From IMG/VR virus record IMGVR_UViG_3300037137_001990, positions 1-24,920 of that record: 24,920 bases of DNA. One strand, 5' to 3'. The position numbers and the translations under genes are program-made. Source of the stretch: a virus. This document shows positions 3,616-16,100 of this stretch, piece by piece (position 1 is the first letter of the stretch; every line of letters starts with the position of its first letter). The notes beneath the pieces are model-generated. The model saw only the letters and a program-made list of their open reading frames with translations. It was not told where the DNA came from and did not search any database.

Positions 3616-4245
3616 CTACCGTTTCCTGGGAGAAGCCCCTTTGCGGGAGGCTGCGCTGGCAGTGCGCTTTTTCGGTTTCTCCTCTTCCTCCTCCTCCTCC
3701 TCTTCTTCTTCCTCCTCTTCCTCTTCCTCCTCTTCGTCCTCGTCTTTCTTCTTCGAGGACTTTGCCGGCTTGTTCTCCTCCCCCTCCTCCTCTTCTTCCT
3801 CATCATCCTCGTCGACGTCGATGAGGCTGTTGATGTAGACGTTTTGGGAAACTCCGTCGGCACCGGTCTTGACCGTAACTTCGCAAGCCAAGCCTTGTGC
3901 GTCTTCCATCGCCTGTGGGATGCCGTCAGCAGATTCGCAATCGATCTCGAGCCGCTCAAACGCCGTCTTGAGCCATCCCAATTGGGTACCGAGGGCGGCT
4001 TCGTCAGCGGCTTGCAACCCGAATGAGGTGAACAACTGTCTCCCAGCCGATTCCCCGCTGAGAATCTTGAGGAAGAACGAGGCTTGGAGACGATTGTTCT
4101 TGCTGGTGTTGACGATTGCCTTGGTGATGCGGGTCTGGTATCTTCCGTCGGGAACGGGAGTGAATCCAGAACCACGGGATTCAGCAGACCTCCATGCTTC
4201 CTTGAGCCCTGAGAGTGCTGCCTTTGCGTTTGTCTTCTGTGCCAT
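3616..4245 (-). CDS. DUF669-like ssDNA-binding protein with long acidic tail
   Basis: This 209-aa protein begins MAQKTNAKAAL at ATG 4245, with AAGGAG 10 bases upstream; in-frame codons further upstream lack a site. Residues of about 25-110 (FTPVPDGRYQTRITKAIV, LQASFFLKILSGESAGRQLF) match the OB-fold-like pattern of phage DUF669 proteins, often encoded beside Sak4-type annealing ATPases and thought to act as single-strand-binding proteins. A first acidic patch follows SLIDVDEDD. Then come KKKDED and an uninterrupted run of 19 Glu (171-189), followed by a basic end (KPKKR to PRKR). Bacterial SSBs use short acidic tips to recruit partners; a 19-Glu run capped by basic residues is unusual. The neighbours are a Sak4-like ATPase upstream and an AAA ATPase downstream. 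The family call is likely but rests on pattern memory. Confidence 0.72.
   Translation of the reverse strand: MAQKTNAKAALSGLKEAWRSAESRGSGFTPVPDGRYQTRITKAIVNTSKNNRLQASFFLKILSGESAGRQLFTSFGLQAADEAALGTQLGWLKTAFERLEIDCESADGIPQAMEDAQGLACEVTVKTGADGVSQNVYINSLIDVDEDDEEEEEEGEENKPAKSSKKKDEDEEEEEEEEEEEEEEEEEEEKPKKRTASAASRKGASPRKR
3676..3735. repeat. 60-bp uninterrupted homopyrimidine/homopurine tract
   Basis: The plus strand is pure C/T for 60 bases, mainly repeats of CTC and TTC, so the coding strand is pure A/G. It encodes the last 18-19 glutamates of the ssDNA-binding protein tail plus one lysine codon. GAA and GAG codons are interspersed, so it is an irregular trinucleotide repeat rather than a perfect microsatellite. 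A second tract of nearly 30 pyrimidines lies close by, starting near 3775. Such tracts can slip during replication, and some adopt triplex structures. Confidence 0.9.
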
Positions 4246-4326
4246 TGGAACGATTCTCCTTGATGTTGGTGTGCCCATAAATGGGCCTGGTGGTCCTACG
4301 ATCAATCTGTCAATTTTTGTGGACGA

Positions 4327-6586: not shown

Positions 6587-8650
6587 TCATAAAAACCAAT
6601 CAACCTTAGTTAGATTGTGCTTCACCACAACGTTTTTGTAAACCCCATGAAATCGCTGGGTTGCTTGTTTGATGGCCCGGCAAGAGATAGGAAATTTTTT
6701 CTTGTCTTCCCATGTTGTTTCAGCGTAAGAGACGTCAACTGTTAACTTCATTTTGTACTGGAGGACAGGGAGAATTTCCTCCATAGCAAGTTGAGCGATC
6801 GCTGCTACTTCTTCAGTGTACTTCTTTTCTACCTCGATGATTAGTTCATCGTGGATGGGAAGAAGGATGGAAGCATGCTTGTCTAATTTTAGAGCCAACA
6901 ACACTCTCCACAATTGGATCATCGCAAACTTCAACACCATGGCTGAAGAGCCTTGGACAAGAGGGTTAATGAGAACCCAAGACTTGTGAACAGAAACAGG
7001 GTAAGGACGATGGAACATATCTATTACGAATCCCTGTTTCAACACTAACTTCATTCCTCGTTGGGCTAACCTATGGATCCCAGGAAACTGAGTGTAATAC
7101 TCATTGAGAATTTCCCTTGCTTCAGCAAATGGAACTCCCAAAGAGGTGGCTAACAAGTGAGTCCCCATCCCGTAGATGATTCCGAAATTGATGGTCTTCG
7201 CTTCTTGCCTGTGCTTCTCATCCCCAAACACCCGGACCGAAGTCAACATGTGAAGGTCACGCCCTTCCTTAAGAGCCTTCAACATTTCGGTATCCTGGGC
7301 AAACAAGGCAAACATTTTTAACTCAATCTGTGAATAGTCAATGTAGAGATTGTTGTACCCAGGGCGAGGGATAAAGATGCTGCGAACGGATGGGATTCCT
7401 TTGATAATGGAGGTGGTTGGGCGAGGGATTCCTTGGAGAGGAGGATTCCCACAGGCAAACCGACCTGTGGCTGTATCTCCTACCTTTAGTTGACAATGGA
7501 TGATTGGATCATCGTCGGTAGACCGAGTTAGGAAACTCTCAAAATAGGTAGAGAGAAGTTTCCCACACACTCTCAAATCCAGTATCTGCGCGAGCAGAGT
7601 TATCTTTGGATGTTCTTTCTGAATGCGAGTCAGAACTTCCTTGCAGGTTGAGATCTTCCCTTTGTAGGTCATCTCCTTTGGTGAAATGTCTACCTCTCGA
7701 AGCAATTCCTTCAGTTGCAGCAGGCTGCGAGGATTGAAGGCATTGAAGCCGAGGGCTCTGGTTTTCTTGATGATGGATAAACGGAGAACTTTTTCTTTAG
7801 CCTTGGTGATTATGGTGGCTCTCTGACAAGCCGCCCTATCTATCATCAGCCCGCGATTCTCCATCCCATACGCCAAATATACACACTCCATCTCTACCTC
7901 CATCAACTTTTTTAGAGCCGGAGTAAGTCGTTCTTCCAACATCATGTAAACAACGAACTCCGCCCAAATATCGCTGAGGGCATAAGGAATCAGAACGTCA
8001 TCTGGGAGTGCGGAATAATTGATCCAGTCTTTAGGTTTACCGCTGCGGGTTGCTGCTGACTTTGCTCTTCGGAGCCATGTCTTCACTTCCAAATCATACT
8101 TAACGTCTTCTCCCCCCATTGAGAATAAGTGAAACAGATCCTTCAGTGAATGGCTTCTGAGAACTGGTTTGGCATCGCCCATGGTGCCCCACTCGGTAGT
8201 TCTGGGATAAACTAAACGGGAGGCGCTGAGAGTATCAAACCACGGAGTGGCAAGAGGAATATCGTGCTTCCTCAAAATCTGCGCATCAAACTTTATGTTA
8301 TGACCGATTTTGAGAAGGGGTCTTGCTAATAGAGCCCTGGCTTCTTCCAATCCTTTCGAATCCCACCATGGGATAAAGAGACAAGTCAGTTTGTCGATTT
8401 TAGGGTTATAGAAGCCAAGTTGGAGACTCACCAGTGCTGAGCCCCTAACCTCAGTCACCTTATTTTTGCGGGTGTCATGGAAATAAGTATGTCCACCATA
8501 CGCATCAAATCCCGATGTCTCTGTATCAACGTAGATAAAGTCTGGGTTACCGCATGTCTTTTGCAACCACTTTACCGAAAGTCTACTCCAAACAGAGTGG
8601 GTGAAAGAAACGTTGCTCTTGAAATAAGAACTGAAGAGTTTGTTTGTCAT
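6587..8650 (-). CDS. polA: DNA polymerase I (family A) with 3'-5' proofreading domain
   Basis: This 687-aa protein is the replicative polymerase of the phage. The exonuclease domain shows Exo I YVDTET (D42, E44), Exo II GHNIKFDAQ (D122) and an Exo III-like YALSDIWAEF. The polymerase domain shows motif A LYIDYSQIELK with catalytic D438, motif B RQEAKTINFGIIYG with K485, and motif C LPIHDELIIEV with D601. There is no 5'-3' exonuclease domain, as in T7-like and many siphovirus polymerases; the separate ERCC4 nuclease is not a substitute for that activity. Motif B has F in NFG, and the position that discriminates against dideoxynucleotides cannot be judged by eye. ATG 8650 overlaps the stop of the upstream methyltransferase (ATGA), so the two are probably translationally coupled. 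Confidence 0.97.
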   Translation of the reverse strand: MTNKLFSSYFKSNVSFTHSVWSRLSVKWLQKTCGNPDFIYVDTETSGFDAYGGHTYFHDTRKNKVTEVRGSALVSLQLGFYNPKIDKLTCLFIPWWDSKGLEEARALLARPLLKIGHNIKFDAQILRKHDIPLATPWFDTLSASRLVYPRTTEWGTMGDAKPVLRSHSLKDLFHLFSMGGEDVKYDLEVKTWLRRAKSAATRSGKPKDWINYSALPDDVLIPYALSDIWAEFVVYMMLEERLTPALKKLMEVEMECVYLAYGMENRGLMIDRAACQRATIITKAKEKVLRLSIIKKTRALGFNAFNPRSLLQLKELLREVDISPKEMTYKGKISTCKEVLTRIQKEHPKITLLAQILDLRVCGKLLSTYFESFLTRSTDDDPIIHCQLKVGDTATGRFACGNPPLQGIPRPTTSIIKGIPSVRSIFIPRPGYNNLYIDYSQIELKMFALFAQDTEMLKALKEGRDLHMLTSVRVFGDEKHRQEAKTINFGIIYGMGTHLLATSLGVPFAEAREILNEYYTQFPGIHRLAQRGMKLVLKQGFVIDMFHRPYPVSVHKSWVLINPLVQGSSAMVLKFAMIQLWRVLLALKLDKHASILLPIHDELIIEVEKKYTEEVAAIAQLAMEEILPVLQYKMKLTVDVSYAETTWEDKKKFPISCRAIKQATQRFHGVYKNVVVKHNLTKVDWFL

Positions 8651-9507
8651 TGGATGAGCATCTTCTTCCGGTATACAAACATAGTATGGGATCTTGATAT
8701 GGGGATGGAAGTTCGATAACCCGGAGGTAAGTATCCTGTGGGAATAGAAGACAGTACCCCACTGTGAATTGCCATGTGTAACCTATGGAAAGCAATTCGA
8801 AAGCCATGGGTTAGAGCAATCACAATGAGTACCCCAGATACATGGAGCAGAGGAAGAACGTCCCTGTTGAGAAAGGCCATTGTCTGCCTGAGGGTTTTGG
8901 TATGAAGAACCTCACTCAAAATCACGAATCCACAAGTTCCCTTGAATCTTTCCATTGCCTGTTCTGGGGTAAAGATATTCGGGCAATGTTGAAAAATTGG
9001 AGTCCGTTTATCTACTCCCCACACAGGAAAAGGGGTTCTGTACTGGTAGAGTTTTTCAACCAGCCATCCATTTCCACAACCGTAATCTATCCCATAGGGC
9101 TCAATCACTTCGTCCTTGATAGCATCAATATCCCAATCCTCAGTAACATGAAATGACTCGAGCATGTGGTCATAACTGGCTTCTACCTCTGGGGACCAAT
9201 CATGGGTGGAATCCATAGTCATTAGATGTTCACAAGTAGCCTTGGAATACAATTGGGAATCATGCTTTACGTAGGTGATAGCCCCAGAGTAATCCTTGAC
9301 TAACTGCAAGAGTTCTACCTCTGTCAGTAAACACCCTAACCCAGCCATGGCTTCAAGGATTTGAGTGCACAAGAAATGAGCCATACCTGTATTACCAGAA
9401 TCGATTGAGTCTTTGTAGAGGGTGATGGCTGTGGTGAGTCTATGACTCATCAGAGCCTTAATAAACATTTCACTATTTGATACGCTCGGCTTTTGCGGTA
9501 TGGACAT
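8647..9507 (-). CDS. Class I SAM-dependent methyltransferase
   Basis: The best start is ATG 9507 (MSIPQKPS), with AGGAGG 10 bases upstream, giving 286 aa. The first 135 residues are helical and unrecognised. The Rossmann domain begins with motif I GIDYGCGNG (139-147), followed by WGVDKR as the ribose-binding acidic strand (162-168) and FVILSEVLHTKTL at the motif IV position (194-206). There is no DPPY/NPPY motif of DNA amino-methyltransferases and no PCQ motif of C5-cytosine enzymes. The LSEVLH strand is typical of small-molecule or tRNA/ubiquinone-type methyltransferases. The substrate is unknown. The gene overlaps the UDG-like gene by 35 bases and the polymerase gene by 4, so it belongs to the same operon and may modify nucleotides or act with its neighbours on DNA bases. 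Methyltransferase fold fairly sure, role inferred. Confidence 0.78.
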   Translation of the reverse strand: MSIPQKPSVSNSEMFIKALMSHRLTTAITLYKDSIDSGNTGMAHFLCTQILEAMAGLGCLLTEVELLQLVKDYSGAITYVKHDSQLYSKATCEHLMTMDSTHDWSPEVEASYDHMLESFHVTEDWDIDAIKDEVIEPYGIDYGCGNGWLVEKLYQYRTPFPVWGVDKRTPIFQHCPNIFTPEQAMERFKGTCGFVILSEVLHTKTLRQTMAFLNRDVLPLLHVSGVLIVIALTHGFRIAFHRLHMAIHSGVLSSIPTGYLPPGYRTSIPISRSHTMFVYRKKMLIQ

Positions 9508-10120
9508 GATCGAGTATCCTCCTGAAATTGTTTTTCCATTCGGTTGTATCCGCATGGCTATACAGAAACGAGGCTGGGTGTCGAAGCCAGTAGAACCCAA
9601 CATGGAGCGAGCAAGCAGGGTTAACCCAGAACCCGGTATTGAACCATCTAACTCCCTCCTTAAGAGCCATAGTCATACCCATGCCCCGGAAAGAATTTCT
9701 GGCGTCTGCTCCTAAGGTTAGGATAATGTTGGGCTTAACGATAGCGAGTTCCTTTCTTAGCCAGTCCTGGCAATTCTCAATCTCGCCTGGAAGAGATGGT
9801 TTGTTTCCTGATGGGTGGCAATGAACGACGTTGGTAGTGAAGACATCGAATTTTGATAAGCCTTCCTCAATCAATACCTCATCAATCAGATCGCCAGAAC
9901 CACGAGTAAACGGAATTTGTGTTAGTTGGCATCGGGTACAAAGACTCTGTCCCACCAACATGATAGGCGAGCATGGATCACCAAACCCTGGGGCACTCAT
10001 GGTATTTGGTTGGTTGAGCCCAGAACACCGTCGACATTCTGCAATGGCTTTTCGAATGCCAACCAATTTCTCTGTCCTGCGATAGAAACGCTCGATGTAG
10101 GTTTTCATTACATGATTCAT
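9473..10120 (-). CDS. Family-4-like uracil-DNA glycosylase superfamily protein with altered motif A
   Basis: The 215-aa protein has the four cysteines of Fe-S family 4 UDGs: C29 and C32 (CRRC), C101 in NVVHCHP and C117 in EIENC. The 16-residue spacing between the last two is the same as in the thermophilic enzymes. Core segments match: FTRGSGDLIDEVLIEEGL, DVFTTNVV, PNIILTLGADA and the C-terminal HPASF with H181. Family 4 has motif A GEAPG, where Glu is catalytic; here it is GQSLC (57-61) with another Cys at 64. Ordinary uracil excision should therefore not be assumed; it might recognise another base or be a non-hydrolytic relative. ATG 10120 has GGAG 10-11 bases upstream. It sits in a cassette with dUTPase and U32-like genes. 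Fold confidence is high; substrate is unknown. Confidence 0.85.
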   Translation of the reverse strand: MNHVMKTYIERFYRRTEKLVGIRKAIAECRRCSGLNQPNTMSAPGFGDPCSPIMLVGQSLCTRCQLTQIPFTRGSGDLIDEVLIEEGLSKFDVFTTNVVHCHPSGNKPSLPGEIENCQDWLRKELAIVKPNIILTLGADARNSFRGMGMTMALKEGVRWFNTGFWVNPACSLHVGFYWLRHPASFLYSHADTTEWKNNFRRILDHVHTAKAERIK

Positions 10121-10125
10121 TTGCT

Positions 10126-10503
10126 TTACTCTCCATGAAACCCATTTTGGATGGGATTGAAGTGTTGTTTAGGGTGATGCCCTTCGTAAAACTCACACAT
10201 GGCTACATTGGATATATCTACCAAATGCTCCAGATTCCCGTCCTCCATATAGAGATCGAGTTTCTTCCTGATATACCCTACCCGGTCATATCTTAGTTTC
10301 GCAGGATCCCCGAGGAGGCCATATCTGAATGCCCCCTGGATCATTCGCCATAGCATGAGATTGATGTAGTCCTGAGGGACCTGAGTGCGTTTTAGTTCTT
10401 CGAGCGATGGTAAGCCGAACCGGATGGGCTTTTCAGGGAGGCCTGCCAAATCCTCCCACAAACTCATCAGGAAGGCCTTTTCAATCAGGCTAACATCAAT
10501 CAC
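10126..10503 (-). CDS. Conserved-looking phage protein of unknown function (125 aa)
   Basis: The frame opens with GTG 10503, overlapping the stop of the U32-like gene. An ATG at 10467 with AAGG 8 bases upstream is an alternative start that would give 113 aa. The protein is mostly helical. Its C-terminal half (RYDRVGYIRKKLDLYMEDGNLEHLVDISNVAMCEFYEG, then HHPKQHF) matches from memory a recurring small phage protein containing a 'GN-LVD-AN' helix and an 'H-P-x-x-H-F' ending, seen near nucleotide-metabolism genes. I know of no proven function. The conserved polar residues (D, N, E, H) look more like an active or metal-binding site than a structural protein. It is 5 bases upstream of the UDG-like gene in the same operon. 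Confidence 0.72.
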   Translation of the reverse strand: MIDVSLIEKAFLMSLWEDLAGLPEKPIRFGLPSLEELKRTQVPQDYINLMLWRMIQGAFRYGLLGDPAKLRYDRVGYIRKKLDLYMEDGNLEHLVDISNVAMCEFYEGHHPKQHFNPIQNGFHGE

Positions 10504-11587
10504 TGAGAGTCTCGAAAAGGTTGTCGCAGATTCGACAGGTTAATCCGCAATCTTCGGTTGAGCAGGAGTGAGGGTTCCCTGAGAAGTTGTCTACTGTACC
10601 TCGCCACTTATCGAGAATCCCAGAGGAAGCGATTGCCGAGGCAGAAAGATAGAGACCATGGGAGGAGATAACCTCTTCTTGTATTTGCCCGTAGATGGTT
10701 TCAAGTTGGGCCCACAAATCCAGAAGGTTCCCAGTCCATATCCTATGCATGTAACCGAAAACAATCTTCCGAATAAACTCACTCTCGTGAGTTCTCCCGG
10801 TTATCTTGAAGTGAGAAATCCCTTCGTCCTCGTAAGATTGAATCCATTGGGGGAGGATGAAGGGGGCCTTAATCCAACTGGATGGTTGACTCCACCTTGC
10901 CGCCATACACCGGCTCATCGGATAATTCTCAGCAACCATCCAATCGTTGTGGGAATGCCCCATGTAGCAGGAGTCACGGTAGATTCCATGGCAAGGAGCA
11001 CGACCTACCGTACAGAATTCATTGACGATGAGTTCTGCAATATCATTGTGCTTGGTTTTGACCAGAGCCCGAAGAAACTTGAAGTCTCGATTCTTCGTGA
11101 TCGGCAAGCACACTCTGACCAACCGTTCTCCTAATGTCCTCTTCCAGAAAGTGAAATGAGAAACTGAATCACAGTTGAGGATGGTGGAGATTTCAACAGC
11201 GATAGGGATGTGGTGTTTGACGATGGTCTCAGCGATGAGGGGGTGAGCAATGGTAATGATGTCGACGAAACCATTGAGAGAATTAAGGAACCTAACAAAG
11301 AGTCTCTCCATGGTACCCCATTGCTTCAGGGATCCCAAGCAAAAAGCGTTCGCTGTTAGATTTACCTTGTACCCAGCCTCATGGACCTGCTTGCAAATCT
11401 CGAAGAACTCTTCTCGTTCAATTTTCGGTAACCGCTCTATGGGACGAGCAGAACCGATCGGGTTGAATGTGGTAGACCAATATAACGAGCCAATACTGGT
11501 TCCATGCTCTAACCCCTCAACCTGCGAACTATTGAAGTCAGCAAGAAGTCTTACGTCCCCGTTGAATCCGACGTTGTAGATGGACAT
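10496..11587 (-). CDS. U32 / UbiU-YhbU-like Fe-S protein
   Basis: This 363-aa protein has the landmarks of the peptidase U32 family: a TIM-barrel-like order of strands (GYKVNLTANA, GFVDIITIAHP, IPIAVEISTILNC, RLVRVCLP), then a cysteine cluster C192, C199, C207 and C227, then the signature HFKITGR. The C192-x6-C199 spacing equals that of UbiU, whose cysteines bind a 4Fe-4S cluster. Despite the 'peptidase' name, characterised bacterial members (UbiU/UbiV, TrhP, RlhA) mostly take part in hydroxylation of ubiquinone precursors or RNA bases. ATG 11587 has GGGAGG 6 bases upstream. It overlaps dUTPase by 37 bases and the 125-aa gene by 8. C-terminal cysteines (CSTEDCGLTCRICD) form a possible second metal site. 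In this phage operon a base or nucleotide hydroxylase role is possible but unproven. Confidence 0.82.
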   Translation of the reverse strand: MSIYNVGFNGDVRLLADFNSSQVEGLEHGTSIGSLYWSTTFNPIGSARPIERLPKIEREEFFEICKQVHEAGYKVNLTANAFCLGSLKQWGTMERLFVRFLNSLNGFVDIITIAHPLIAETIVKHHIPIAVEISTILNCDSVSHFTFWKRTLGERLVRVCLPITKNRDFKFLRALVKTKHNDIAELIVNEFCTVGRAPCHGIYRDSCYMGHSHNDWMVAENYPMSRCMAARWSQPSSWIKAPFILPQWIQSYEDEGISHFKITGRTHESEFIRKIVFGYMHRIWTGNLLDLWAQLETIYGQIQEEVISSHGLYLSASAIASSGILDKWRGTVDNFSGNPHSCSTEDCGLTCRICDNLFETLSD

Positions 11588-12021
11588 GGCGATCCTCCCT
11601 TATTTGTGCTTCCTAAACCGTTTGTCTTCCTACTTGATTCAGGTAAAGCGTCGTAGGCTGCTTCTTGTGCCCCTCTATCGTACAATCTTATTGGAAGTAT
11701 CTGTGCTATTCTCATACCCGGGACAATGGTGAAGACATATCTGGAGAGATTCACTAAACAAACATGGATCTCTCCTCGATAATTCGAGTCCACAACATTC
11801 CCTATCGTAAACACCCCATCCTTATGAGCAAATCCTGATCTGCCTTGGATAAGGAAACAAATGTTCTTTGGTCCAGCCATTGCTATCCCAACCCCCACAC
11901 TAACGAAAGAGTTGGGAGATACGTTTACTGCCTCAATCGCAAACAGATCAAACGCAGCATCTCCATCAAAGGACTTGGAGGGGATAACTGCTTTCGGAGA
12001 GAGTTTTGCAAAATATATCAT
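11551..12021 (-). CDS. dut: dUTP diphosphatase (trimeric dUTPase)
   Basis: This 156-aa enzyme hydrolyses dUTP to dUMP and pyrophosphate, keeping uracil out of phage DNA and supplying dUMP. All five motifs are visible: I DAAFDL (21-26), II GRSGFAH (60-66), III GNVVDSNYRG with catalytic D78, IV GMRIAQI (102-108) and V RKTNGLGSTNKGG (131-143). Motif V has Leu where most trimeric dUTPases have the uracil-stacking Phe of GGFGST, a deviation. A short Ser/Thr-rich tail follows. The ribosome site before ATG 12021 is poor, and only 24 bases separate the start from the hairpin at 12046-12086, so expression may depend on transcript structure. It is the first gene of the metabolism and replication arm and overlaps the U32-like gene by 37 bases. 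Confidence 0.95.
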   Translation of the reverse strand: MIYFAKLSPKAVIPSKSFDGDAAFDLFAIEAVNVSPNSFVSVGVGIAMAGPKNICFLIQGRSGFAHKDGVFTIGNVVDSNYRGEIHVCLVNLSRYVFTIVPGMRIAQILPIRLYDRGAQEAAYDALPESSRKTNGLGSTNKGGSPCPSTTSDSTGT

Positions 12022-12127: not shown

Positions 12128-12472
12128 CTACTCTCCGTCACCGTCGTCGTTGGTTGCGAGTTTCGCCTTGGCTTTACCCTTGGCTTTACCCTTGGCTTTG
12201 GCCTTGGCTTTGGGTTTTTCCTTCTTCTGGCGAACCGCTCGTGGGATGTCCATCCCGTCGGCGCGAAGCCGGTTGCGGTAATACGAAGCGTGAACCGGGT
12301 TGAACTTGGAGTCCGGGAACTGCTTCGTCACGAGGTCGACGAGTTCGGCATTGGATACGTCCGGGTTGCTTTCGAACTCGCTACGCACCAGCGCGGAGAT
12401 GGTTTCGCGAGGTTCCTTCGCTGGCTTCGTCTTCGCCTTCTGGGCGACTTTCTTCTTCTTTGGGGCACTCAT
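12128..12472 (-). CDS. Lys/Ala-rich histone-H1-like DNA-binding protein
   Basis: The 114-aa protein has three parts: a basic N-terminus (APKKKKVAQKAKTKPAK), a folded helical core of about 55 residues (ETISALVRSEFESNPDVSNAELVDLV, then FNPVHASYYRNRLRADG), and a basic repetitive C-tail of alternating Lys-Ala and Lys-Gly (KAKAKAKGKAKGKAKAK) ending in an acidic NDDGDGE. The core looks helix-turn-helix-like, and the tails resemble bacterial histone-H1-like proteins, so binding or compacting DNA is a reasonable inference. The gene has a strong site, AAGGAGG 8 bases before ATG 12472, and its own 105-base upstream gap, consistent with high expression. The tail is encoded by an imperfect tandem repeat of GGCTTTACCCTT-type units at about 12165-12215. 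The family name is not recognised. Confidence 0.75.
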   Translation of the reverse strand: MSAPKKKKVAQKAKTKPAKEPRETISALVRSEFESNPDVSNAELVDLVTKQFPDSKFNPVHASYYRNRLRADGMDIPRAVRQKKEKPKAKAKAKGKAKGKAKAKLATNDDGDGE

Positions 12473-12577
12473 TTGGTGACCCTCCTTTCTCGTTCGCTAT
12501 TTGCGACTTTGCTATTGTGCGATAGGCATAATTTGAATGATGCCCCAATTGTGCTTTTTTTCCCTATATGTTTTCCC

Positions 12578-13102
12578 TCAAATGTATGCCCTATTAAGCC
12601 AGCCTGCCAGGAACTTTTGGAGTTTAGGGTGCTTTGCTGCAATTACTCGGTAGTGCCCTGCTCTCTCACACTTGAAGGCGTTCAACAGTAGCATGGGGTC
12701 AGTGATACTATTTACGACAGCCAGCGTCAAAGTTCCTAACTTCCCATCCTCCGAAAGGGAATATCCGAATGCTCTCAATGCCCTTTGGAGAATGATGATG
12801 GAAGTCATGGGTCCCATGTTTACACCAGCATCAAACACCCGATTGGCAATAGCCTGACTGTTGATGGACTTGAGGCTATAGGGATCCCAATACAATTTCT
12901 CATAGACTACCATTTTTTGCTGGGCATTGAGAAGGAGAAGATCAGCATCCGTAATCACGCCGTCTTTGTTGAGATCAAACTCCAGGTCAAACTTTGTAAG
13001 GTCCCTAACCAGGAGTCCATCAACTGTAAATCCAGCATAGTCAGTAACTATACCAATCTCTCTCACTATCATAAAGAGATAAGCCGGAGGATACTCACTC
13101 AT
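12578..13102 (-). CDS. Endolysin, GH108-like N-acetylmuramidase with EF-hand loop
   Basis: This 174-aa protein resembles the N4 gp61-type muramidases (GH108 plus the predicted peptidoglycan-binding domain). The N-terminal helix carries E15, the expected catalytic Glu of this family. VVYEKLYW, ANRVFDAGVNMGP and IILQRALRAFGY match the conserved C-terminal half, and SEDGKLGTLTLAVVN matches the 'D-G-x-x-G-x-x-T' stretch. The usual D-GG-T segment is degenerate (YAGFTVDGLL). Inserted before the VVYEKLYW helix is a textbook EF-hand loop D43-x-N45-x-D47-G-V49-x-T51-x-x-D54, suggesting calcium binding. There is no signal peptide or clear N-terminal anchor, so a holin is expected elsewhere; none is recognisable here. 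ATG 13102 has CGAGG 7 bases upstream. Lysis role probable. Confidence 0.82.
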   Translation of the reverse strand: MSEYPPAYLFMIVREIGIVTDYAGFTVDGLLVRDLTKFDLEFDLNKDGVITDADLLLLNAQQKMVVYEKLYWDPYSLKSINSQAIANRVFDAGVNMGPMTSIIILQRALRAFGYSLSEDGKLGTLTLAVVNSITDPMLLLNAFKCERAGHYRVIAAKHPKLQKFLAGWLNRAYI

Positions 13103-13114
13103 TGAAGAACCTCG

Positions 13115-16100
13115 TTAGGAGTTCTTAAGTGCAGGCCAAAGACCTGCAACCATTGCTGGTTTAGAGTTTGAGAGATAGTTGTGGTCTATCTCCACAAAAA
13201 CGGTTCCGATTGTAATACCGCCTGCGCTGATTTTTCTCCCGGTGTAGGAAAAGGTTTTTACCAGCCCATCCTCATCAGTTACACCTGAGCACCCACTCAC
13301 CCAAGTCGATAAAAAATTGTGAAGGTCAGTAGTTCCTCCAACTTCAAAAGGTCCAGAAGGAACAAGACAAAGATAGTCTGTTGAAGAAAGAGGATTCTCA
13401 GCGAGGTACTTGGCAATGTCGGTGATGTTGAACATTCCATAGTAGGAATCTTCAATCATTTTCATCGAAGCCAGAGAACCAAAACCAAGAATGGAAGATA
13501 AGGTTGCTAAGCCAGTTTCATCAAGCACAAGTCTGGCCATGTGGATTCCCAACCCAGCAGAGAGAGGGTTGAGGACTGTTATATCAGACACAATTGGATT
13601 GTAATCGACTATCTCAAAATGGTGCTCTATGTAATATATTGGCCCACCAAACCTAATCCCAACATAGCAAGCCTTGATTGCGTCTGCCCGAAGAGGGATT
13701 CTGATTTGGAAACGAGGAGCACCAGCACCCCCGATAGCCCGCACCAAGTAAGGTACTGACCAGACATTCGCCCCAACCTCAAGCCCTCCGGGTGGAAGAA
13801 ACGAAGGAGCACACCAACCAACTTGGGTGGGAGTATAATCTGGCGGAGGAGGTGGTACATAAAGAGGTAAAGCAGACAATGAACCCCAGGAAAAATTCTT
13901 TGCTGTCCCGTAGTCTGGGGTACTAACTCCAGTTGTTGTCCACCCAATCGCCGAATGGTATTGCCCAAATGCTATCTGAAGACCTCCTCCAAGATTAGTC
14001 GGGGTGAAGGCAATCAATTTCCTGATTCCCTCTCTCAACCGAGTTACATGCTCTGCAGGGGGATTAGGCATCATGTCAAGGAAGTCCCCTTTGACTTGGA
14101 TGTCATGAAACTTAGTTGGATCCCAGGAAACAGAACTTATAGAAGCCCGACCTGATGGTCTGTCAATTGACAAGAGAACCGCAACTGAGTCGCTGTCTAT
14201 CGCTACTGGGCCTGATCTCACCAAGTGTCTGACTTCCACCATTGTAGTTGATTCTCCAAAGGAATCATCGACTTTTGCCTCATACTTTGGGGGGAGAACA
14301 CCGTCCATGTAGAACTCAAATCTCTGCTGGGCTCGTTGAGCAGAGGATAACCCTAAAAGGTAGTTTCCTAATTGGGTAGCAAGGGCCCCAGCCAACTCAA
14401 ACCAAACCTCGTCACATTTCCTTCGATAGTCTTCGAAGTCTGCCGGGTGGCCTAAGCCTTTTGGAGGCGTGAGTATATCAACAAGTTCAGCCCCGGTGTA
14501 GGTCAAAGTGTAACGGATTCGTCGGAACCATGTTGTGTTTGAGGGAGTGAGAAACCATGAGGCGTTCTTCTGGAAGAGATGGAATTTCCCAGGTGCAGCC
14601 AACATCATTTCAGGGGCTGCTCCATCCCTGATTCCATCATAGATTAGAGCCAGGGTAGACCAACCCTTAGTGGCATAATTGTAGACCTCGAAGGTAATGG
14701 GTTGTTCAACATCTGGGAGACCACGGAGAGGGATACAAGGGACAGATGGGAAAGCCCCACCCGCATATCCCTGAGAAACCATGTAGATGTTGGCATCTTC
14801 CTCTTGAGATGCTTCTCCTGTAAACTTAAACCTAACCTTCCACCCGAGGTCTGCCAGATTACCCGAAATTGCGTACTGTGCCCATGCTGCAGCCATTTTG
14901 GGGTTGTTCGGGATTAGAGGACCAGAGGTAGCACCTTGGCCGCTGCCGATTCGCCAGTGGGCATCGGCTGATTCGTTGAATTCAGTGGCATCAGCAGCCA
15001 CCTGCTCGATTCCAAGCAGCCAGGCTGGGGAGTAGTTATAGTTTACAGCCTCAACCAGGAATGAGGATTTGCCGCTGGAGGGGTACCACCCACCAGGACA
15101 ATCCATCTCCTTAGTTTCAACACCCGAGCCACCCAATGGAGGCCCACTGTAAATCTCCCCACTGTAGGCCTTGGCTTTGAGGACTGGTACTCGAATTTGG
15201 TTTAGAGGGTATGGGGCAGTTGATATACTTGCTGTACATCCTTTCCGTGCTTTGTAACACTGCCCGAAAAATGACCCCTCATTTGAGGTGAGACCATTAC
15301 GACTTTTTCGTTCGTCAACAGGATCAACAGTATGGCCTCCAGCCAAATACAAAGAATACCCAGTTTCATCTTGCCCAAGATAAAACTCACAAGCCTCAAT
15401 CCCTGGGGTAAATGCTACCTTAAGGATGTTTCCACCCACCATTGGAATCCTATACATTCTCCAAGCATATTTCGCCTGTTCTTGGATTCCGTTGAATGCT
15501 CCCAACGAAACGGCTCTTGGGGTTCTAATGGAAACAATGTCAATCAGATCACTCTTTTGATGGATAACTTCGCATCCACTTATAGTTTGGACCTGGTTGT
15601 ACAAGGATGGGGTAAGGTTGATGTTGCGGATAGGGAACTTCCGCTTTTTGATTCTCTGCACATATTTCTCTGTATATCCAAAGATCGGAGACTCAGGGTG
15701 AGGAGGAGTAAACGGATGCTCTCTGAAGCCAGGGAAGTAAGAAAAGATTTCTGCGTAGTCCGACCCATCATCAAAGACTTCACCTGAAGTGCCAGATTGG
15801 GGTTGTGTGCTTCCTTGCTGCAGAACACCTGTTTTTCCAGGAGCGATCGTTCCATTCTTTATTGTCCAATAAGGTTCGGTTGTTGTGTCGAGGTAACCGA
15901 AGATCCCATGTCCCAGCCTGGTGTACCTTGGAGAATAAACGTTCTGGCTGTAAGATGGTTGACCAGCCAACCAAGTCAAACTCGGTACACCCCCTGCCCC
16001 TCTCAACATAATCACAGTTGGATTCCCAGCCATGACTTGGCGAAAAACCAAGTTCTTCCCCATCAATAGGTTCTTGATTCCATCGAGGGAAATACGAGTC

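Follow-up and report, generated by a model that had tools for sequence, protein, structure and literature searches.

A phage-type U32-family protein encoded beside a methyltransferase and a candidate route to 5-methoxypyrimidine in phage DNA

A U32 gene in a nucleotide and DNA metabolism block

The window, by which we mean the whole stretch of 24,920 bases that was analysed, is a complete virus record and is itself a genome fragment. Its minus strand carries a block of genes that encodes, in transcription order, a dUTPase, a U32-family protein, a protein of 125 amino acids, a UDG-fold protein, a methyltransferase and a family A DNA polymerase (PolA):

11551–12021, minus strand: dUTPase, 156 amino acids (Pfam dUTPase, 1.9e-21), directly upstream of the U32 gene and overlapping its start by 37 bases
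10496–11587, minus strand: U32-family protein, 363 amino acids, predicted (beta/alpha)8 barrel
10126–10503, minus strand: ORF of 125 amino acids with no family assigned, between the U32 and UDG genes
9473–10120, minus strand: UDG-fold protein of the family-4 type, with four Fe-S-site Cys and motif A changed from GEGPG to GQSLC
8647–9507, minus strand: class I SAM methyltransferase that resembles O-methyltransferases of aromatic hydroxyls, with His234 (numbering of the longer ORF)
6587–8650, minus strand: PolA (Pfam DNA_pol_A, 3.8e-72), the last gene of the U32–UDG–methyltransferase–PolA block

Downstream of PolA lie a candidate ERCC4-like nuclease, a PD-(D/E)XK nuclease, an AAA_24 ATPase, a DUF669/SSB-like protein and, farther away, a DNA ligase. 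The DUF669/SSB-like protein (3616–4305, minus strand) carries a long, Glu-rich, acidic low-complexity stretch at its C terminus. No tRNA genes were found in the window, and a search of this 24.9-kb fragment for TS, chorismate mutase, dNMP kinase and sugar genes also found none.

The U32 reading frame that an earlier note had claimed from the sequence is present at 10496–11587; it runs from 11587 to 10496 and has GGGAGGA directly upstream of its ATG, and the plus strand over the same interval is interrupted by stops. The dUTPase, UDG-superfamily and methyltransferase neighbours named in that note are likewise present (Pfam). For the methyltransferase (METHYLTRANSFERASE), the most likely start moves from 9603 to the ATG at 9507, which is preceded by AGGAGGA.

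Four further contigs (L019, L023, L029 and L035) share the arrangement of the window. L019 is a contig of a Planctomycetota metagenome-assembled genome that reads as phage. The order common to all five is U32, a small ORF, the UDG-fold gene, the methyltransferase, PolA and the ERCC4-like nuclease, with insertions in L019 and L035. Because the U32 proteins of these contigs are only 29–33% identical to that of the window, the block has been kept over a long divergence; tree support for the five as a single clade is weak (80/47). In L035, the insertion between the UDG and methyltransferase genes encodes a B12-binding/radical SAM protein (12247–13368), and a further methylation is possible there. 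Another contig, L026, has the order dUTPase, U32, P-loop protein and methyltransferase. TS and chorismate mutase genes were not found in the window-type virus records, all of which are contig fragments; the assembly that contains L019 has both, only on other contigs.

In three syntenic contigs, the slot of the 125-amino-acid ORF holds a protein of the DUF6378/nucleotide-modification-associated domain 1 type, and the window ORF has no sequence similarity to the DUF6378 protein in that slot of L019. The family-4 motif A with its catalytic Glu is missing from the UDG-fold protein, and Gln or Ile stands in place of the Glu in the homologues from window-type contigs. The GQSLC motif itself is common to the window and L019 and is altered in L023, L029 and L035. 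The window protein may be a glycosylase fold that has lost catalysis or been turned to another target, and it might sense uracil or the modified base. UDG domains are also fused to the C terminus of PolIII-alpha (L020, 3476–6643) and to the N terminus of PolB (L030, 606–3722) in two other U32-bearing viral contigs.

Family, fold and conserved residues of the U32 protein

Membership in the U32 family, which the earlier note had proposed, is borne out by several searches. The protein matches Pfam PF01136 above the cutoff (E = 1.4e-5; 25 bits against 22.4) over residues 108–151 only (44 residues), and phrog_5757, named ‘peptidase’, matches it end to end (residues 2–358; E = 1.4e-51). Structure prediction, one of the checks that the note had suggested, gave a U32-type barrel: an AlphaFold2 model computed from the window protein and 19 relatives (from viral contigs and two cellular assemblies) has eight barrel strands, a pLDDT of 85.7 and a pTM of 0.88, and is uncertain at residues 194–201 and 333–349. 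Among solved structures, its best match is 5D88, of the U32 family (Foldseek, 4.4e-6; VIA-align, Z = 16.8, rmsd 3.3 over 224 residues, with the next row at Z = 12.1), which both programs ranked first and clearly over other barrels. A profile of 20 sequences also found 5D88 in the PDB (E = 0.0016), whereas the window protein alone (phmmer) and a five-sequence profile gave no PDB match. NCBIfam had no match for the protein, and a scan of viral contigs with the single window sequence recovered no relative, although alignment queries did.

The more specific description of the protein as UbiU-like does not stand. Of the four U32 proteins of E. coli, TrhP obtains the highest score from the family profile, which also places RlhA above UbiU and UbiV. 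UbiU and UbiV belong to the same family as the window protein and carry one [4Fe-4S] cluster per subunit (PMC6747719), but they are its weakest profile matches, form a heterodimer and act on a quinone precursor. In a tree that took in TrhP, RlhA and UbiU, with UbiV left out, the phage-type U32 proteins form a fully supported group separate from all three, and orthology to any of them is not seen. The U32 ORF of L030 was left out of the analysis because the gene caller gave no clean reading of it. For the window protein, the U32 family, the barrel fold and the setting among DNA-modification genes are well supported.

All of the motifs listed in the earlier note (C192 and C199 with x6 spacing, C207, C227 and HFKITGR) are found in the protein, and the cysteine pattern is no product of chance, as it is conserved across 20 aligned homologues (28–36% identity to the window protein). 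Without exception they have N189-E190-F191-C192, C207, C227 and G264-R265-T266, and each of the 20 has a further Cys between C192 and C207, at variable spacing. The note was right about these four core cysteines and overlooked a second invariant set, C342-x4-C347-x3-C351-x2-C354, that closes the protein; the eight positions are kept in 20 of the 20 relatives. In UbiU, four cysteines bind a [4Fe-4S] cluster (PMC6747719). C192, C199, C207 and C227 are probably Fe-S ligands, and the C-terminal set suggests a second metal site.

The resemblance to RNA hydroxylases extends to the catalytic residues. TrhP requires E162, C170 and C177 for C5 hydroxylation of U34, and RlhA requires E161, C169 and C176 for that of C2501 (PMC6599085). 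By motif (a Glu before the first Cys, and Cys-Tyr-x2-His), these correspond to phage E185, which is at least 90% conserved, and to C192 and C207, which are 100% conserved among the 20 homologues. An HMM places C176 and the CYxxH of RlhA on the phage CYxxH, and the local Glu region is gapped in the alignment. Judged by motif, the catalytic Glu and Cys residues are retained in the window protein. TrhP (YegQ) and RlhA share its barrel signature, and a prephenate link would be expected. They differ in substrate (tRNA ho5U34 and 23S rRNA ho5C2501, respectively), in cysteine spacing of the CX6CX15CX3C type, in their separate branch of the tree and in lacking the C-terminal CX4CX3CX2C of the phage clade. 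The window protein is probably an Fe-S protein and a hydroxylase of the O2-independent type.

Its database label would instead make it a peptidase, a reading that we consider hardly credible. The Pfam and PHROG names speak for it. Against it, the U32 ‘peptidase’ name is historical, the hydroxylase Glu and Cys residues are invariant or nearly so, and the characterized U32 proteins that we considered are Fe-S hydroxylases (PMC6747719; PMC11574389).

Relatives with sugar genes, chorismate mutase and the TS homologue

The earlier note had regarded the use of a U32 protein on a nucleotide or DNA base as new. A tblastn search does not support this: 218 INPHARED phage records, nearly all T4-like, hold a homologue, nearly always full length and at about 33% identity, among the genes for arabinosylated 5-hydroxycytosine DNA (PMC13390438). 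The hosts of the U32-positive T4-like phages are Escherichia, Klebsiella, Proteus, Serratia, Yersinia and Shewanella. These proteins (phrog_5757; RB69ORF050c-type) share the eight conserved cysteine positions and the DNA-modification context of the window protein. Their neighbours are a TS homologue, arabinose or nucleotidyl-sugar genes and usually a chorismate mutase, whereas the window has a UDG-fold protein and an O-methyltransferase-like protein instead. In each of four T4-like neighbourhoods, the U32 gene lies beside genes for an arabinose-5-phosphate isomerase and a nucleotidyltransferase and genes of the TS/dCMP-HMase type; Thanatos and Mosigvirus are among the phages with this arrangement. 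Near the window gene, we found none of the genes of the arabinosyl-5-hydroxycytosine pathway (sugar isomerase, nucleotidyltransferase, DNA arabinosyltransferase and TS homologue). Phage U32 genes are already known, and the window, with what would be a variant of phage DNA hypermodification, does not hold a first phage U32. What looks new is its context, in which U32, UDG-fold, methyltransferase and PolA genes stand together in five divergent contigs.

Chorismate mutase, the product of which is prephenate, recurs at these loci. In Thanatos, Proteus PM2 and a Klebsiella phage, the small ORF that follows U32 encodes a chorismate mutase of type II. The CM_2 domain occurs in 13 of 16 U32-positive T4-like genomes compared with none of four U32-negative genomes that have the TS homologue (one-sided Fisher P of about 0.007, calculated by hand and a guide only, as the genomes are related). 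We know of no other reason for a chorismate mutase to adjoin U32. No CM_2 match was found in the Mosigvirus or Marfa genomes. ORF 229 of Mogra, which occupies the chorismate mutase slot, has no detectable chorismate mutase match, and KARL1_208 was ruled out as a U32 protein. L034 encodes a fusion of DAHP synthase and chorismate mutase (7302–8357; Pfam) two genes from U32, which puts the entry enzyme of the shikimate pathway in a phage operon; L031 (8405–9427) and L033 (3–971) are likewise positive for chorismate mutase, their fusion being judged from the chorismate mutase match and size.

Prephenate is needed by TrhP and RlhA (PMC6599085) and, according to a review, is the oxygen source of anaerobic ubiquinone synthesis (PMC11574389). 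Cx-SAM synthesis likewise consumes it (PMC12783734), and no CmoA was noted at the loci with chorismate mutase and U32. Through this linkage in its relatives, use of prephenate by the window protein is supported indirectly. 

The DNA of Thanatos and of the Mosigvirus group carries a pentose that is O-linked to C5 of cytosine (PMC12838424; PMC13390438). The authors of the Thanatos study had ‘no valid hypothesis’ for the origin of the hydroxyl (PMC12838424), and the Durham paper attributes the 5-hydroxy-dCMP of Mosigvirus to a 5-hydroxy-dCMP synthase of the TS superfamily, which its authors cite (PMC13390438); given this attribution, the U32 protein of Mosigvirus may act in an assisting or backup capacity. 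The two genes occur together in many T4-like phages. The TS homologue and sugar genes occur without U32 in JS10, KARL-1 and Serratia 4S, and four contigs of 49–86 kb (L024, L031, L032 and L034) combine U32 with genes of the sugar type and gave no match to TS; L028 resembles these four but is only 20 kb in length. Incomplete as the contigs are, this distribution suggests that U32 and the TS homologue replace each other and that U32 may be an alternative, perhaps anaerobic, route of hydroxylation. A counterpart pair acts on tRNA, namely O2-dependent TrhO and prephenate-dependent TrhP.

Phage-type U32 proteins also occur in Bacteroidales (L072, L073, L074 and L075), where their neighbours are B12-radical SAM proteins and NRPS/PKS-like ORFs of very large size, or else a protein of the arylamine N-acetyltransferase type; these are probably natural-product hydroxylases. 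An operon of Phocaeicola faecalis (L018, 2984–7077), which may be a prophage remnant or serve defence or metabolism, combines a phage-type U32 protein with a GP88-like protein, a guanylate kinase–methyltransferase fusion and a weak AGOG-type glycosylase match.

The methyltransferase and the proposed product

A profile of six U32-linked methyltransferases has members in the window, L019, L023, L026, L029 and L035 and found none in any sugar-type or T4-like locus searched. Identity across the family is 13–21%. Against the PDB, the profile matches an O-methyltransferase of the Photorhabdus Plu4890 type (9e-7) and isoflavanone 4'-O-methyltransferase (2.7e-5); its lower-scoring matches include N-methyltransferases as well as DOT1L and PRMTs, with which only the SAM core is shared. 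His234, a residue of the catalytic type, is invariant in the six homologues and aligns to the VLH-motif His of Plu4890, a protein that is also represented in the PDB entries by an H229N mutant; by hand count, the aligned His is residue 230 of the deposited chain, off by one. The model of the window methyltransferase is weak (pLDDT 66), and its structural neighbours in the PDB are mostly phenolic O-methyltransferases (Z of about 13). In Pfam, the window protein gets no further than a match to Methyltransf_23 below the cutoff (0.0008), and the L026 homologue matches Methyltransf_2 at the cutoff. A classical DNA N6A/N4C or C5 methyltransferase was considered and rejected, as no such Pfam model matched and no [DNS]PP[YF] motif stands at the expected place. 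These profile and model matches support, but do not prove, action on an aromatic hydroxyl.

We propose that the window U32 protein is a prephenate-dependent, and probably O2-independent, pyrimidine C5-hydroxylase, which would draw its prephenate from the host because the window contig has no chorismate mutase. Its product would be a 5-hydroxypyrimidine for phage DNA, 5-hydroxycytosine being likelier than 5-hydroxyuracil. The SAM methyltransferase encoded two genes downstream would then methylate the new hydroxyl to give a 5-methoxypyrimidine, whereas the T4-like relatives would cap the same hydroxyl with arabinose. In this nucleotide and DNA operon, the substrate is likely to be a nucleotide or DNA base, a possibility that the earlier note had raised. 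Computation gives the family and fold of the protein, its retained catalytic residues, its gene neighbourhood and the partition of tailoring genes; from these we infer hydroxylation, prephenate use, the identity of the base, O-methylation and presence in virion DNA. That U32 is a pyrimidine hydroxylase in these phages is likely. For the complete sequence of steps, from C5 hydroxylation through O-methylation to a 5-methoxypyrimidine in phage DNA, we see the chances as evenly balanced; a 5-methoxypyrimidine as the product of the window phage is plausible, with an even chance at best, and the replacement of a DNA pyrimidine by 5-methoxycytosine or 5-methoxyuracil through these two enzymes is put forward tentatively, at somewhat less than an even chance. 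We know of no report of either base in DNA and of no DNA modification in the phage group of the window.

The methyltransferase and the UDG-fold protein could be otherwise employed, with the DNA hydroxyl left bare or decorated by genes beyond the contig. Most of the phages that we found pair U32 with sugar-tailoring genes, and the window is only a 24.9-kb fragment. Wherever sugar genes are present, however, they lie no more than a few kilobases from U32, and the five window-type contigs have no such genes near U32, the methyltransferase being in the same block in each; we judge this possibility to be fairly unlikely. A more distant departure is that RNA, whether of the host or of the phage, is the substrate of U32, as it is of TrhP and RlhA; U32 would then give ho5U or ho5C in tRNA or rRNA, and the methyltransferase would produce mo5U, as YrrN/YrrO plus TrmR do in Bacillus. 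The characterized pyrimidine-hydroxylating U32 proteins do use RNA (PMC6599085), and tRNA mo5U sets a precedent for hydroxylation followed by O-methylation. The gene company points elsewhere, to dUTPase, UDG, PolA, nucleases and SSB with no tRNA genes found, the relatives of the protein sit in DNA-modification operons, and in the tree the protein falls outside the group of TrhP, RlhA and UbiU, so that action on RNA seems improbable.

It is quite improbable, in our view, that U32 leaves the base alone and either helps another hydroxylase, for example as an activator that depends on prephenate or on Fe-S, or modifies a precursor such as a sugar or small molecule. All U32-positive T4-like loci examined also hold the TS homologue that is credited with 5-hydroxy-dCMP (PMC13390438), one record labels U32 as part of UDP-arabinose biosynthesis, and related proteins lie in the NRPS/PKS-type clusters of Bacteroidales. 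Against these roles stand contigs that have U32 and sugar genes without TS, and the window type, which has neither TS nor sugar genes.

Two known systems come close to the proposed hydroxylation and O-methylation of DNA. In Bacillus, YrrN/YrrO and TrmR make tRNA mo5U34 by U32 hydroxylation before SAM-dependent O-methylation (PMC6599085); their substrate is RNA, whereas DNA is proposed here, and the comparison is one of pathways. In phage S-B43, CmoA and CmoX, which make 5-carboxymethylcytosine, are RNA-modification enzymes reused on DNA with a link to prephenate (PMC12783734), but they comprise a C5-methyltransferase that uses carboxy-SAM and involve no U32 hydroxylation.

Because U32 and the TS homologue appear to replace each other, the enzyme assignment is directly testable in phages such as RB69. 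If the proposal is true, the 5-hydroxypyrimidine chemistry of phage DNA would gain an O2-independent enzyme family and a source in prephenate, and the window would hold the counterpart, for DNA, of the pathway to mo5U in tRNA. This suggests a modular rule, in which a common hydroxylase would be combined with exchangeable caps: a sugar in T4-like phages and a methyl group in phages of the window type.
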